Virus record (IMG/VR): IMGVR_UViG_3300042430_002389
Coordinates: 1 to 27,856 of that record
Strand: one strand, 5' to 3'
Length of the DNA stretch: 27,856 nt
Source of the DNA: a virus
Position numbers and translations under genes: made by a program. Position 1 is the stretch's first letter, and each line of letters opens with the position of its first letter. The notes beneath the pieces are model-generated. The model saw only the letters and a list, made by a program, of their open reading frames with translations. It searched no databases and had not been told where the DNA came from. Shown here piece after piece: positions 4,506 through 9,638 of the stretch.

Positions 4506-5855
4506 TTATTCATTATTCCATTGCCTTACGATTGTTGTTTTCTCAGGAATGGGAAGGGGTTTGAACTTAGGAGCGTAGTCCATGACCTTGGTATACTTTA
4601 GGTCGGTAGAGGCAACAGCTACTCCAAGCTCTCCGTTTCTATTCTTGCGGACCAATATCTCCATCACATCCTTAGCATCCTCGAAGGCTGGAGCAGACTC
4701 TTCCATATACGCTGCTGGACGATAACAGAACAGCACCTTGTCTGCATCATATTCCAGCTGGCCACTCTCTCTAAGGTCTGCCATAAATGGTCTCTTATCT
4801 TCTCTCTCTTCGACTTTCCGACTTAAGGATGATATAAGACATATCCAAACACCTTGACGCTTACACATAGCCTTAAACTGCTTCGAGATGTTAGTGATTT
4901 GCTCTACCTTGTTTTTCATCTTATCCTCCCTCATCGGAGAGACAAGCTGGAGGTAGTCGATGTACACGCCTTCCACTCCATGCTGGCGAACCATCCTTGC
5001 TATCTCGGATTCTATCTTGACCGGGTCGGCATCGGGTTGATCACTAATGTACAGCTTAGTGTTTTTAAGTTTGTCTACATGGGCAGCCACTTGGTTTATC
5101 TCCTGAACGCTGAGGTTCTCTACGATGTTGATGAACTTCTTACCATCTATCTCGGTAGAGTTGCTTAGAAGCCTTGAGGTAAGCTGCTCGGTAGACATCT
5201 CCATAGTGATGAAGCCAACTGCTGTATCCTTCTGCGCTTGGTTGTATGCCATCTGAAGTGCGAGCGTTGTTTTGCCATGGGCAGGTCTGCCTCCAAGGAT
5301 TATGAAGTCCCCAGGCTGGAAGCCATTCACGATACTGTCTAAGGCTCTTAGGTGCGTCTTAGTGGACTTAACTTTCTCCTTGCCATCCTTTATCCTCGCA
5401 ATCTTCTTAACGAAGCTTAGAGCAGCTGTATGAACATCTGTGCTGGTAGCATCGATGTCATCCGCATTAAGGACATTGAACTGCTCGAAAGCCTTCGGGA
5501 TGTCGAAGTCTGCCATAAGCTCCCTCTTTATCTCTTCCAGCTTATTAGCCTTGTACATATCATGCAGTTCGGCTATGTAGTGTTTAACGTGCTGAAGCTC
5601 GAAGATACCGCCAGCACTCATCTCTGCCAGCTTAGAAGCATTAGAAGCAAATCCTAAGTCCTTCATCTTTTTAAAGATGGTGAGTACATCTACTGGCTTA
5701 GACTCCCGATGGAGAACCTGGCAAGCAGCGAAGATGTTTCTACGCTCACCGCTGAAGTACTCCGCTCTTAGAGATGTAATTACATTGCCCGTATTCATAT
5801 CGGGGGACATGAGTACTGCGAGGACTTTTTCTTGGACTGCTTCAGAATATTGCAT
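4506..5855 (-). CDS. dnaB: DnaB-like replicative helicase
   Basis: 449 aa, full length for the family. Residues 1-100 form the DnaB N-terminal helical domain (EAVQEKVLAVLMSPD..., SKPVDVLTIFKKM). The RecA-like core starts near 165: Walker A GGRPAHGKT (188-196), the H1a glutamate in ITMEMS (216-221), Walker B GVYIDYLQLV (296-305), and DLRESGQLEYDADKV with an arginine-rich C-terminal part. It unwinds DNA ahead of the phage fork as a hexameric 5'-3' helicase in the cytoplasm. It follows the DnaD-like gene with a 14-nt overlap, the usual loader-helicase order in phage operons. Confidence 0.95.
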   Translation of the reverse strand: MQYSEAVQEKVLAVLMSPDMNTGNVITSLRAEYFSGERRNIFAACQVLHRESKPVDVLTIFKKMKDLGFASNASKLAEMSAGGIFELQHVKHYIAELHDMYKANKLEEIKRELMADFDIPKAFEQFNVLNADDIDATSTDVHTAALSFVKKIARIKDGKEKVKSTKTHLRALDSIVNGFQPGDFIILGGRPAHGKTTLALQMAYNQAQKDTAVGFITMEMSTEQLTSRLLSNSTEIDGKKFINIVENLSVQEINQVAAHVDKLKNTKLYISDQPDADPVKIESEIARMVRQHGVEGVYIDYLQLVSPMREDKMKNKVEQITNISKQFKAMCKRQGVWICLISSLSRKVEEREDKRPFMADLRESGQLEYDADKVLFCYRPAAYMEESAPAFEDAKDVMEILVRKNRNGELGVAVASTDLKYTKVMDYAPKFKPLPIPEKTTIVRQWNNE

Positions 5856-6552
5856 TGGCTGGTGGCTGGTAAGTTGTTGTTTCTTTCTTTATTGGGGTTG
5901 CAAAAATAGATGGAATTTCATCATTGAAGCACTTTTGATTTAAATAAGTTGCTGGAAGCTTTCGGTAGTTAGGGTCACTCTTCCAAAGGACATAGCTACT
6001 GACTGTCTCTAAGACCTTATCCATCTCTTCGGGAGATAGCTTATGCCATGACTTGAGTGCTGTTGCTCTGCTTTCCTTTTTATTGTAGACTTCCCAAAAT
6101 ATGTTAAACTTATCCACAATGCTTGTAGGTTCTAAATCTTTTGCTTTTTTATCAATTAGACTTTTCTTTTCATTCTTTACATTCTTTTTACTGTCTTCAG
6201 TTTGTCTTACAACTGTCTTCTCATCGTGTAGCGACCCCTGATAACTATCATAGTTACAAATAGTTATCCGTGTGTACTTTGCCGAACTTTCAGAATTTAC
6301 CATGAAATCTTTTTGAAGAATCGATATAAACTGCCTAAGGTAGTCTTTAGAGACTCCTAGGGTAGATGCGATGTCTCTTAGGCTGCCGACTATCTCACCT
6401 CTTCGGCATTCTATCACTTCAGAGCCTATAAGCACCTTCTGATTGCTGTGTGAAGCGTTGAGCAGGATACCTACCCAACACTTCAGTTTAACAGCATCTG
6501 ACCATATCCAATGATCTTGTAGGGACCGCTCTATCTTAATCCATCCGCTCAT
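5842..6552 (-). CDS. DnaD/replisome-organizer-like replication protein
   Basis: 236 aa from ATG 6552 (MSGWIKIERSLQDHWIWSDA...). The N-terminal 'GWIKIxRSLxDHWIW' plus a winged-helix segment (GSLRDIASTLGVSKDYLRQFISILQKD, about residues 75-97) are typical of phage replication initiation/organizer proteins. A Lys-rich linker (about 130-155) leads to a C-terminal 'FWEVYNKKESRATALKSWHKLSPEE...YRKLPATYLNQK', a common C-terminal module of such proteins. It likely recognises the origin or loads the DnaB helicase encoded next. The ATG at 6594 would overlap the 57-aa upstream gene by 46 nt; ATG 6552 forms an ATGA overlap and is preferred. Confidence 0.85.
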   Translation of the reverse strand: MSGWIKIERSLQDHWIWSDAVKLKCWVGILLNASHSNQKVLIGSEVIECRRGEIVGSLRDIASTLGVSKDYLRQFISILQKDFMVNSESSAKYTRITICNYDSYQGSLHDEKTVVRQTEDSKKNVKNEKKSLIDKKAKDLEPTSIVDKFNIFWEVYNKKESRATALKSWHKLSPEEMDKVLETVSSYVLWKSDPNYRKLPATYLNQKCFNDEIPSIFATPIKKETTTYQPPANAIF

Positions 6553-6722
6553 TCTTCCTCCATCAGTTCGAGTTCGTCCAATACAGCCTCCCAAAAGTCT
6601 ATCTCCTCCTGGTCACCATTCCAAGTGACATCATCTAATATTTCTAAGGCATTAAGCTCTGCGGACTTCTTATCGCCATTGTGCCGGTGCAACAACGACA
6701 ATGCTTTCATTTCTGCTGTCAT
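6549..6722 (-). CDS. Small acidic protein (57 aa), unknown
   Basis: This frame has ATGA overlaps on both sides (start at 6722 with the preceding TGA; TGA at 6549-6551 with the next ATG). The product begins MTAEMKALSLLHRHNGDKKSAE and ends in an acidic helix (EEIDFWEAVLDELELMEEE). The length and perfect fit in the gap make it a credible gene; function unknown. Confidence 0.6.
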   Translation of the reverse strand: MTAEMKALSLLHRHNGDKKSAELNALEILDDVTWNGDQEEIDFWEAVLDELELMEEE

Positions 6723-7075
6723 TTCTTTTCCTCCGTATTGTTTAATAGATGATTAGTGGTTGATGGCTCTACAATGCCTCCCTCAGTAGGTATGTATTGA
6801 GTTGCTTGCCTATTTTCTTCAAACATCATACTCCCATCATATAGCAGCACGTTGCTATTTTCAGATACCTGCATTAGTGACTTTCTTATCATTTCTTGAA
6901 ACCAATCTGCGCTTATAGCTGCTTGAGGAGCTTGAAATTCGTAAACAACCCTTTCAAACCCTATTTCGTAGGATACTGTCTGACCGAGCCATCTGCGCCA
7001 CCATTTAGGGTGAGGCATTGGCTTAGTATAGTGGTCTGGTCTTTTTAAAAATACGCTTGCTTTATAATTTTTCAT
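6719..7075 (-). CDS. Hypothetical protein
   Basis: 118 aa with an aromatic N-terminal half (KPMPHPKWWRRWLGQTVSYEIGFERVVYEFQ) and a polar, Thr/Asn/Glu-rich C-terminal tail that looks disordered. No catalytic motif or membrane segment. It lies between a coiled-coil protein and the 57-aa gene in the replication part of the operon. Confidence 0.65.
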   Translation of the reverse strand: MKNYKASVFLKRPDHYTKPMPHPKWWRRWLGQTVSYEIGFERVVYEFQAPQAAISADWFQEMIRKSLMQVSENSNVLLYDGSMMFEENRQATQYIPTEGGIVEPSTTNHLLNNTEEKK

Positions 7076-7081
7076 GGCTGG

Positions 7082-7525
7082 TTATTTAAAAGAGATTGCT
7101 ATGCTTGCTTTGGTAGGCTTAGGGGGAAGCAATGGCACTACCTCTCCAGTAGCCTCATCCACTACCTGCACTCCACCTTTCATCTTATACACTTGCTTGA
7201 GGATAGACTCCCTTGCTTTAACAGCCTCTTTGAGTTCTCTTAAAACAGCATCCTCATCGAGGTCGGGAGTGTCTGCACCCTCCTTGAGTTGGATAGTAGC
7301 ACCGAAGGCTTCAAAGGACTTGCCTCCGTACTTCATTGCCTCTTCCCTCGTTAACTCCTCAGTCTTCTCGATGAGTTCGGCTAAAGCCTTCGTAAGGGCC
7401 TTAGCTTTGATGTGCAGTTCGAGAGGGTCAGCCTCGCCATTCTCTACAAGGGAAATCATTTTGTTTGCGTACTCGGAGATGTCAGCCTTGCCGACATTAC
7501 TCCTTGGGATTTCGATTAAGTTCAC
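7082..7525 (-). CDS. Hypothetical helical protein next to the DNA methyltransferase
   Basis: 147 aa. Residues about 20-65 and 90-112 are amphipathic helices (ELHIKAKALTKALAELIEKTEELT; LRELKEAVKARESILKQVY) flanking a short 'YGGKSFEAFGATIQLKEGADTPDLDED' strand segment; the C-terminus is Pro-rich (VPLLPPKPTK). The plan resembles small helical proteins found beside annealases in phage recombination modules, but I do not recognise the family. ATGA overlap with the upstream methyltransferase gene (start at 7525). Confidence 0.65.
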   Translation of the reverse strand: MNLIEIPRSNVGKADISEYANKMISLVENGEADPLELHIKAKALTKALAELIEKTEELTREEAMKYGGKSFEAFGATIQLKEGADTPDLDEDAVLRELKEAVKARESILKQVYKMKGGVQVVDEATGEVVPLLPPKPTKASIAISFK

Positions 7526-9057
7526 TTTGTTTCGTTTAAAAGGTTTGCAATGTAATCAATTCTTTTTCCAATCCAATGCATCACGGGTACTGCCATAGAA
7601 TTTCCGCAGGCTTTATATCGTGGTCCATCGGGGCATTTGTCTATCGGCTTATTACGATAAGGTATTCTTGTCCAAGAATCAGGAAATCCCTGAAGTCTTT
7701 CACATTCGGTAGGGGTCAATCTTCTGATAGCCATAGTGTTTTGAGCCTGCTGAATAGCATTAATTTCAGATACAGCTTCATCACTACAACCACCACGGCT
7801 GCCTTTACATTGTGTAATGGTAGGAGCAAGTATTTGAGGCTGCAATACCGCTCCATAGTGGTTTACATCACTTGCAGAGCTGCCGATGGTTTGGCTTGTC
7901 TTCTCGTTGACTGTCTGATTGTAGCAGTCTACTGCGAGGGGTTGTAATACCTTTAAATCACTATCTGCCTGAGTAATGGTTGGGCTTTTGGTCGGGTTTT
8001 CAGTAATGTACAGCCCTCCATTTGGTCTGTCTTTCCTTTTGCCATTTGTATCATTAAAACAAATTTGAATAGGCTGCGCTATCATCTGATCTTGCACAGC
8101 ACCGATGGTAAATACACGCTCATCTTGACCAAGGTATCCTTTTCCAGCCTTCTTGCCCGGAGTTCCTCCTTGCTCGCCAGTCTCTACCTCTGAGCCTCCT
8201 CTTATCTTGAAGGCGTGAGCGACTGCGTGAGGTCCCTTAGCAACTAATGATGGCATTGTCTCCCCTTCCTCAATGTATGGCTCATACTGAGCGTTTACAC
8301 CTTGGTTGAAGGCTGCTCTATCAATGATGGTAGGCTCGGTAACTATCGGTGCTTCATGAACGCAGCTAAGGGTAGGACAGCTATTGTTTGTGGTTATCTC
8401 AGCATTTGCCTGCCCATGCGCCATCGCTATCGTTCTGCCACTCTCTCCAATGCCATCCTGAGCTGGTCGGGGAGTTTCTTTCCCCTTTTTTCTGCTCTTC
8501 TCAAGATTCCATTGCAAGCTGTGGGACTCAAATAATACTGCTGCGGCAGGTCTCCAGTCTCCAAGGTATCCGACAACAAACACTCTTCTTCTTCGCTGTG
8601 CGACTCCAAAGTACTGAGCGTCAAGAATGCGGTAGGCGAACCCATACCCGAGTTCTGCCAACGCTGTGAGGAAGGTTGCAAAATCCCTTCCTCCGTTACT
8701 TGACAACACACCGGGGACATTTTCCCAAACAATCCATTGTGGCTTCTTTCTTTCAGCCAAGCTGAGGTAAGTGAGCATGAGGTTTCCTCTAGGGTCATCA
8801 AGTCCCTTTCTAAGTCCTGCGACCGAGAAGGATTGGCAGGGTGTTCCTCCAACGAGAACATCGATAGTTGAGTCATTAAATATTGGGTTTAAGTGAATTT
8901 GAGTCATGTCTCCCAAATTGGGAACATTCGGGAATCTATAATCTAATACAGCGGAGGGGAATGGCTCTATCTCCGAGAACCATTGTGCCTCCCAGCCAAG
9001 AGGATGCCACGCAACAGTAGCAGCCTCTATGCCGGAACAAACAGATCCATACCTCAC
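7522..9057 (-). CDS. dcm: Cytosine-C5 DNA methyltransferase
   Basis: 511 aa. Motif I GSVCSGIEAA (4-13), motif IV GTPCQSF with catalytic Cys74, motif VI WENVPG (111-116), motif VIII AQRRRRVF (153-160), and after a long variable region motifs IX (RRLTPTECERLQGFP, 445-459) and X (CGNSMAVPV, 484-492). All core motifs are intact, so an active enzyme is likely. It would methylate the phage genome, most plausibly to evade host restriction; the recognition site cannot be read from sequence. The target-recognition region (about 200-440) is unusually long and contains recurring short motifs (CPTLS 227, MPSLVA 268, SPTITQ 358, SQTIGS 388, APTITQ 411). ATGA overlaps on both sides. A second ORF lies within it in another frame (8427-8876). 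Confidence 0.95.
   Translation of the reverse strand: MRYGSVCSGIEAATVAWHPLGWEAQWFSEIEPFPSAVLDYRFPNVPNLGDMTQIHLNPIFNDSTIDVLVGGTPCQSFSVAGLRKGLDDPRGNLMLTYLSLAERKKPQWIVWENVPGVLSSNGGRDFATFLTALAELGYGFAYRILDAQYFGVAQRRRRVFVVGYLGDWRPAAAVLFESHSLQWNLEKSRKKGKETPRPAQDGIGESGRTIAMAHGQANAEITTNNSCPTLSCVHEAPIVTEPTIIDRAAFNQGVNAQYEPYIEEGETMPSLVAKGPHAVAHAFKIRGGSEVETGEQGGTPGKKAGKGYLGQDERVFTIGAVQDQMIAQPIQICFNDTNGKRKDRPNGGLYITENPTKSPTITQADSDLKVLQPLAVDCYNQTVNEKTSQTIGSSASDVNHYGAVLQPQILAPTITQCKGSRGGCSDEAVSEINAIQQAQNTMAIRRLTPTECERLQGFPDSWTRIPYRNKPIDKCPDGPRYKACGNSMAVPVMHWIGKRIDYIANLLNETK
8427..8876 (-). CDS. Overprinted ORF inside dcm, probable second protein
   Basis: 149 aa encoded wholly within the methyltransferase gene on the same strand, shifted +1, spanning dcm residues about 61-210 (PCQ to QRRRR motifs and beyond). 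It begins MTQLSMFSLEEHPANPS and ends with 'YYLSPTACNGILRRAEKRGKKLPDQLRMALERVA'; the middle has 'WQNSGMGSPTAFLTLSTLE'. I associate the pattern 'SxFSxEExPAxPS...NSGMGSPTExLTL...YYLSxxACxGILRRAEKRGKxLP' with uncharacterised phage/prophage proteins encoded in or beside cytosine methyltransferase genes, so this is probably a genuine overlapping gene and not a shadow. The Dcm motifs in the other frame are fully conserved. Function unknown; recollection of the family is not verified by search. Confidence 0.6.
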   Translation of the reverse strand: MTQLSMFSLEEHPANPSRSQDLERDLMTLEETSCSLTSAWLKERSHNGLFGKMSPVCCQVTEEGILQPSSQRWQNSGMGSPTAFLTLSTLESHSEEEECLLSDTLETGDLPQQYYLSPTACNGILRRAEKRGKKLPDQLRMALERVAER

Positions 9058-9638
9058 TTTAAGAAGGCTTGAAGGTCTACGATAAGGAGATTGATGTCGG
9101 TAGCACCAAGATGCTCAATACGCTTGAGTTGGTCAAACTTGTACTTCATAGCTATGCGGACCAATCCACCAGCATCTTTGTTTTTACCTTGCTCCCAAAG
9201 TTCCTTAGCCATCTTAACCTGACCATCACTCGCTGGCTTCTGCTGCGGTGCTGGCAGTGGCTGTGCTGGAGGAGTAGTTCTGCCCGAAGCCATATTGGCA
9301 TCGTCATCAAATGCCATCAAGGCCAAGCAGCTCTGCAAAGTGTACCTGCGGAAATAAGTTATCTCAGATCCGACAGCCTGGGGATTGTTGCTGCCAGTCA
9401 GCTTCATCTCGCTGCTAAGGCTCTCACCGCTTTCTACATGGTAGATGATGGAGATGACTTTCTCATCGGTGATAGGCTGCAATAATAGCAAGCCATGCTT
9501 CTCAAGGATAGGCTCGACCTGGTCTATGATAGAATTGATGTCGGCATAGTTCTTCTTAAAGAAAGGATTCTTTTGGTCTTTCTTGATTGAGCCGATTTCT
9601 TTTTTTGCCTCATATAAGGCTTTGATGATGTTCTTCAT
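9054..9638 (-). CDS. erf: ERF family single-strand DNA annealing protein
   Basis: 194 aa. The ERF hallmarks are present: 'KKNYADINSIIDQVEPILEKHGL' near residues 29-50 and the signature 'GSEITYFRRYTLQSCLAL' (90-107) followed by DDDAN (111-115). A Pro/Gln-rich linker (PPAQPLPAPQQKP) leads to a small helical C-terminal domain. ERF proteins anneal complementary single strands and drive phage recombination and end-joining or circularisation. It is ATGA-coupled to the methyltransferase gene; the DUF1064 nuclease and SSB-tail protein in the same operon would be natural partners (inference). Confidence 0.92.
   Translation of the reverse strand: MKNIIKALYEAKKEIGSIKKDQKNPFFKKNYADINSIIDQVEPILEKHGLLLLQPITDEKVISIIYHVESGESLSSEMKLTGSNNPQAVGSEITYFRRYTLQSCLALMAFDDDANMASGRTTPPAQPLPAPQQKPASDGQVKMAKELWEQGKNKDAGGLVRIAMKYKFDQLKRIEHLGATDINLLIVDLQAFLK

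Follow-up and report, generated by a model that had tools for sequence, protein, structure and literature searches.

Does a phage cytosine methyltransferase gene carry a second protein in its +1 frame, and what would such a protein do? The question arises from a stretch of 27,856 nucleotides (virus record IMGVR_UViG_3300042430_002389), here called the window. A sequence-only reading had proposed a 149-aa ORF, overprinted on the methyltransferase gene dcm, as a real protein with both frames under constraint. The ORF is present with its ATG start, and the peptides quoted from it are correct. It runs from ATG to TAG (8876..8427, minus strand) in the +1 frame of dcm and overlaps dcm residues about 61-210. 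The nested ORF is named f1 and the dcm frame f0. Open frame, synonymous constraint and sequence evidence strongly support the proposal, and f1 is almost certainly a true gene with its own initiation, overprinted on dcm.

The dcm Gene and its Neighbourhood

The gene dcm (9057..7522, minus strand) encodes a C5 cytosine methyltransferase of 511 aa with motifs I-X and matches Pfam PF00145 (E=3.5e-58). The motifs PCQ, ENV and QRRRR in the overlapped stretch are all intact, as had been read. An Erf-like ssDNA annealing protein (9054..9638, minus strand) is encoded directly upstream with a 4-nt overlap with the dcm start. The downstream replication genes encode a DnaD-like helicase loader (6594..5842, minus strand) and a DnaB-like helicase (5855..4506, minus strand), placing dcm between the Erf and DnaD/DnaB genes. 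A phage of this type presumably uses the polymerase and the clamp of its host.

Two antisense ORFs of 174 and 123 aa (7074-7598 and 7576-7947, plus strand) cover ORF147 and the 3′ part of dcm and are probably due to chance. The window Dcm also matches positions 652-861 of 1064 in phrog_864, a family named DNA primase, which suggests primase-Dcm fusions. In Vibrio phage 234P10 (L008), a primase gene overlaps the dcm start. In Pseudomonas phage vB_PaeS-D14E (L175), where f1 starts MQLTLLEP, dcm is preceded at a short distance by a gene whose annotation reads DNA polymerase III beta subunit, central domain, with a single small gene between them.

Selection on the Overlapping Frames

The +1 frame of relatives is open beyond the level forced by dcm. 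In 300 shuffles of synonymous codons within the window dcm, the f1 stretch was never wholly open (0/300). Any +1 run at least as long as the real one (153 codons) appeared in 0.3% of these shuffles, with a mean run of 74 codons. For 92 non-redundant relatives, the mean probability of the frame staying open was 0.017 under synonymous shuffling, a value that takes dcm sequence and codon use into account but not phylogeny, in relatives that are not independent samples and include some loci retrieved using f1 itself, with a bias towards open copies. Stop codons in the f1 frame of relatives, named in the sequence-only reading as counterevidence, are rare.

The fourfold third-base diversity of dcm in the 92 relatives is 0.70 over residues 1-60, before f1. 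Within f1 it amounts to 0.43 (residues 61-100), 0.39 (101-130), 0.29 (131-163), 0.18 (164-183) and 0.17 (184-203), and past the f1 stop to 0.75 (211-225). These boundaries coincide with the start and the stop of f1. The excess synonymous constraint is confined to the f1 span, the opposite of the unconstrained variation that would have spoken against a gene. In these genes, the conserved segment with motifs IX/X, located outside f1, showed a diversity of 0.66; hence, conservation of the catalytic core cannot account for the drop. This segment served as control because the streptococcal phiD12-type Dcm, initially a candidate negative control, displays the nested signature itself and was dropped. 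A more divergent Dcm family from streptococcal and related phages (L339, L342-L387) has a fourfold diversity of 0.58, then 0.10 and again 0.65, and its nested frame has a shorter end, ...STLSDILEAEVDEKYYLS..KA..ILSNL.

At dcm residues 184-193, mean differences at codon positions 1, 2 and 3 are 0.55, 0.22 and 0.13. The reversal extends over residues 184-203, where the third base of dcm is the least and the first base the most variable. Thus, f1 is the dominant coding frame in its last 40 codons. In the window's clade, differences that are synonymous in f0 and change f1 occur at a rate of 0.150 before the overlap and of 0.068 and 0.040 inside. For the C-terminal part of f1, pairwise counts, which are not phylogenetically independent, give an f1 N/S of 0.37 with f0 changed and 0.17 with f0 unchanged; f0, by contrast, is almost free of constraint there (0.98 where f1 changes). 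Amino-acid constraint in this clade is weak over the first part and linker of f1 (NN/NS 1.04), yet stop codons are avoided. Purifying selection on f1 amino acids is evident for the C-terminal domain and weak in the linker. Judged by these comparisons, f1 is under purifying selection as a protein, kept open, conserved and found in company with Dcm.

Start Signals and the N-Terminal Motif

Relatives of f1 possess a translation start of their own. A Shine-Dalgarno sequence of at least 5 nt, spaced 5-10 nt before the f1 start, occurs in 86/135 loci against 7.2 expected from synonymous shuffling, and in 46/93 loci from bacterial genomes against 4.9 expected. The window f1 start is without a Shine-Dalgarno sequence, as are the dcm and Erf starts of the window.

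The N-terminus of the window f1 reads MTQLSMF. Residues 3-7, QLSMF (8856..8870, minus strand), form a candidate sliding-clamp-binding motif, the published beta-clamp consensus being QLxLF (PMC4549789). The first locus set was used to define a loose pattern, Q[LMI][STDEN][LMIF][FWL], which is present there in 52/135 loci (0.2 expected). Since the pattern had been chosen on these loci, a second set from bacterial genomes was analysed. It yielded 46/93 loci against 0.1 expected, with a maximum of 2 in 200 shuffles; the two sets come from different collections, and sequences related across them were not removed. A strict pattern was found in 22/135 and 24/93 loci, with about 0 expected. Canonical forms occur in distant lineages, e.g. 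QLDLF in a Mycobacterium phage, QLTLF in Rctr41k, QLSLF in L249 and QMELF in L257. The f1 starts vary by lineage, and so does the motif position relative to dcm; one dcm peptide therefore does not force the motif. As in beta-clamp binders, the QLxLF-type peptide is located in an accessible terminus. About half of the f1 copies are without the pattern, including most clostridial copies, which start MENIQ.

T4-like phages encode their own clamp. In one such phage, Morganella phage vB_Mm5 (L437), f1 has kept the C-terminal domain and has no QLxLF motif; loss of a host-clamp motif in this single case would fit a phage-encoded clamp. For P1, a short form starting MPNTSEW was dropped, because clostridial copies do not preserve that ATG. 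MQLTT, with GGAG 7 nt upstream, is the better P1 start.

The Dcm genes of Mycobacterium phage Florinda (L340) and Arthrobacter phage JaNo (L341) contain a different +1 ORF carrying QMDLFSEHS. Another +1 ORF, in the L394 Dcm, carries EQLTLFPED and runs into the WPTP...EWLMGFPIGWTD region. These ORFs perhaps represent a second class of clamp-motif ORFs in phage Dcm genes.

Linker and C-Terminal Domain

Residues 8-100 of f1 (8577..8855, minus strand) form a variable linker, mostly predicted to be disordered, which covers the PCQ, ENV and QRRRR motifs of dcm. The C-terminal domain (residues 101-149; 8430..8576, minus strand) is a predicted helical hairpin, with high-confidence helices at residues 118-131 and 137-148. 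In the AlphaFold2 model, block means were 94-97 over the last 30 residues; most other blocks stayed under 60. An alignment of 72 f1 proteins places every invariant residue within residues 101-143, and the conserved C-terminal consensus is FLSxKACxGILRRAxxRGKxLP.

The hairpin had no match in Pfam, NCBIfam, PDB sequences or Foldseek. A chorismate-lyase match in one f1 member (E=0.0078) was weak and judged to be chance. The family phrog_16143 ('DNA methyltransferase', 139 aa) is matched by 64/72 f1 proteins. It covers residues 4-118 of the window f1, short of most of the conserved hairpin. A Pfam match to a C5 methyltransferase and a methyltransferase motif are both absent from f1; the family label is that of the enzyme and is misleading for f1.

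Distribution and Linkage to Dcm

A tblastn search with f1 matched 99 phage and 511 plasmid records. The plasmids were mostly from Escherichia, with many matches under P1-like dmt genes. In 17/17 annotated records compared, f1 matches a dcm-like CDS in its +1 frame, and no record, that of P1 included, annotates f1 as a gene. The best 80 matches among viral contigs fetched by the Dcm protein contained the C-terminal f1 domain without exception (80/80), which, restricted to best Dcm matches, gives no rate for phage Dcms in general. Profile searches, with the centre genome counted, detected the domain in 6/399 genomes from the phylum of a Massilia genome, 21/399 from that of an Oscillibacter genome and 2/297 from that of a Phaeocystidibacter genome. 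Further carriers are phages or plasmids of Mycobacterium, Bifidobacterium, Streptococcus, Akkermansia and Vibrio. Homologues span at least five bacterial phyla besides P1 dmt, nearly always nested in dcm. The domain is absent from the Dcms of Fpv11, Florinda and JaNo.

In nearly all of about 400 loci, f1 is nested in dcm. No free-standing copy was found among these loci or in about 1,100 sampled genomes. The sequence-only reading had counted a lack of homologues outside this frame of dcm against a real gene; one such homologue exists. In a Bacteroidota genome (L435), a complete Dcm carries an in-frame C-terminal extension matching the f1 linker and domain; this tail aligns over 91% of its length to nested f1 copies of Vibrio phages (34% identity, E=5e-9). 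L435 is the single clean fusion case.

In L425, dcm breaks off behind motif VIII; it is the f1 frame that carries on across the target-recognition region and motifs IX-X. The arrangement resembles split enzymes; decay or an assembly error is possible. The f1 frame extends beyond the domain into target-recognition-like sequence in L425, L398, L317 and L245, which are possible split methyltransferases by their sequence. L315 and L320 also contain frame joins, which resemble assembly frameshifts and were set aside. The L430 Dcm contains an in-frame segment similar to the f1 domain (E about 1e-5), a hint that the domain may derive from the Dcm target-recognition region.

Proposed Function and Alternatives

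The sequence-only reading had suggested an anti-restriction factor or a regulator of the enzyme. The tie to the enzyme stands, given the nested position and the L435 fusion, while direct support for anti-restriction was not obtained: f1 had no match in PADLOC, Pfam or NCBIfam, a result that leaves room for anti-restriction, as the PADLOC models cover defence. The N-terminal clamp motif, missed in that reading, points to a replication-clamp adaptor. f1 likely binds the sliding clamp, to judge from its motif, and we infer a coupling to methylation. The N-terminal motif would bind the host beta clamp (DnaN), the C-terminal hairpin would bind Dcm, and the flexible linker would place the methyltransferase at the replication fork. 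Phage DNA would then be methylated during copying and would not be exposed unmethylated to host restriction. We consider it somewhat more probable than its negation that f1 is a Dcm partner which, encoded by an overprinted gene, tethers methylation to the replication clamp. For the widespread unannotated family nested in dcm of phages and prophages as a whole, P1 dmt included, a role as replication-clamp adaptor coupling methylation to the moving fork falls just short of an even chance. According to CRISPRi data, dmt-A and dmt-B of P1 are non-essential (PMC10695390). This is expected for a protective role without a matching host restriction enzyme, and equally for no function.

Alternatively, f1 could be a nested clamp ligand acting on host replication rather than on methylation, competing for DnaN or hijacking it for the phage, with its location in dcm being historical. 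The clamp motif and the replication-module context agree with this. Nested genes can hardly move and are kept by the overlap, so co-occurrence with dcm alone proves little. However, the one copy that left the overlap, L435, is fused to Dcm, and a free-standing copy did not appear in the sampled genomes, which makes an action on host replication unlikely.

A nested enzyme subunit, contributing DNA contact, folding or target choice via the basic hairpin GILRRAEKRGKK, with the QLxLF-like end serving otherwise, is distinctly unlikely. The hairpin is indeed the conserved part and basic, the f1 frame of L425 reaches the target-recognition region and motifs IX-X, and two-chain C5 methyltransferases are known (PMC3404938). 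Against a subunit, the window dcm possesses a variable region of its own along with motifs I-X, and the N-terminal motif matches the clamp consensus far above chance.

Production of f1 solely by frameshifting in dcm, joining motifs I-VIII to the f1 C-terminal domain, would account for the strongest constraint in the last 40 codons and for the frame joins in L425 and L398; it is very improbable, as the upstream part of f1 likewise stays open, with a start signal and an N-terminal motif of its own, all needless for a frameshift product. Conserved dcm core motifs do force some +1 similarity, but that the resemblance is a by-product of dcm conservation or codon bias, or a nucleic-acid signal with no protein made, is scarcely credible, because dcm-preserving synonymous shuffles destroy the f1 signal, dcm varies most freely at the very positions where f1 is best conserved, the f1 domain retains 54-67% identity in loci whose Dcm core is only 33-42% identical to that of the window, the codon-position pattern suits a protein rather than an RNA or DNA element, and L435 reads the domain in frame.

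Implications and Comparison with Known Systems

It seems that a protein with deep conservation in common phages has been overlooked, even in the well-studied P1, because gene callers discard ORFs inside other genes; one family database carries it under the name of the enzyme. f1 accounts for the strong constraint on synonymous sites in these dcm genes and offers a testable tie of phage DNA methylation to the replication clamp. Recoding, knockdown or deletion of dcm or dmt alters a second gene as well and calls for caution. No account of a gene nested in phage dcm or dmt was found in open-licence papers, most subscription papers lying outside the search, nor was a clamp-methyltransferase link in phages in the open-licence literature.

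A nested partner of a methyltransferase is of a known kind. In M.EcoHK31I, the large-chain gene also encodes the small chain, in another frame. In the two-chain C5 methyltransferases M.EcoHK31I and M.AquI, the small chain supplies motif IX or motifs IX-X, respectively (PMC3404938). The window locus shares with them a cytosine methyltransferase locus with two chains, f1 being predicted from sequence. In contrast, dcm of the window retains motifs I-X, with RRLTPTECERLQGFP and GNSMAVPV in f0. f1 contains neither and does not supply motif IX, which its frame includes only in the exceptional L425; it presents a clamp motif and a new hairpin domain instead.

IS transposases are among the beta-clamp-binding proteins with a QLxLF peptide (PMC4549789). 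f1 would share with them the short pentapeptide in a flexible terminus. It differs in the N-terminal position of its putative motif, in a C-terminal domain of its own and in being overprinted on a methyltransferase gene.

DNMT1 is tethered to PCNA. By analogy, the proposed principle, clamp-bound methylation behind the fork, would be the same. However, there is no homology, and the tether here would be a distinct polypeptide, encoded by the enzyme gene in a second frame. If true, f1 is a bacterial-virus counterpart of DNMT1-PCNA tethering, encoded in the second reading frame of the enzyme that it serves.
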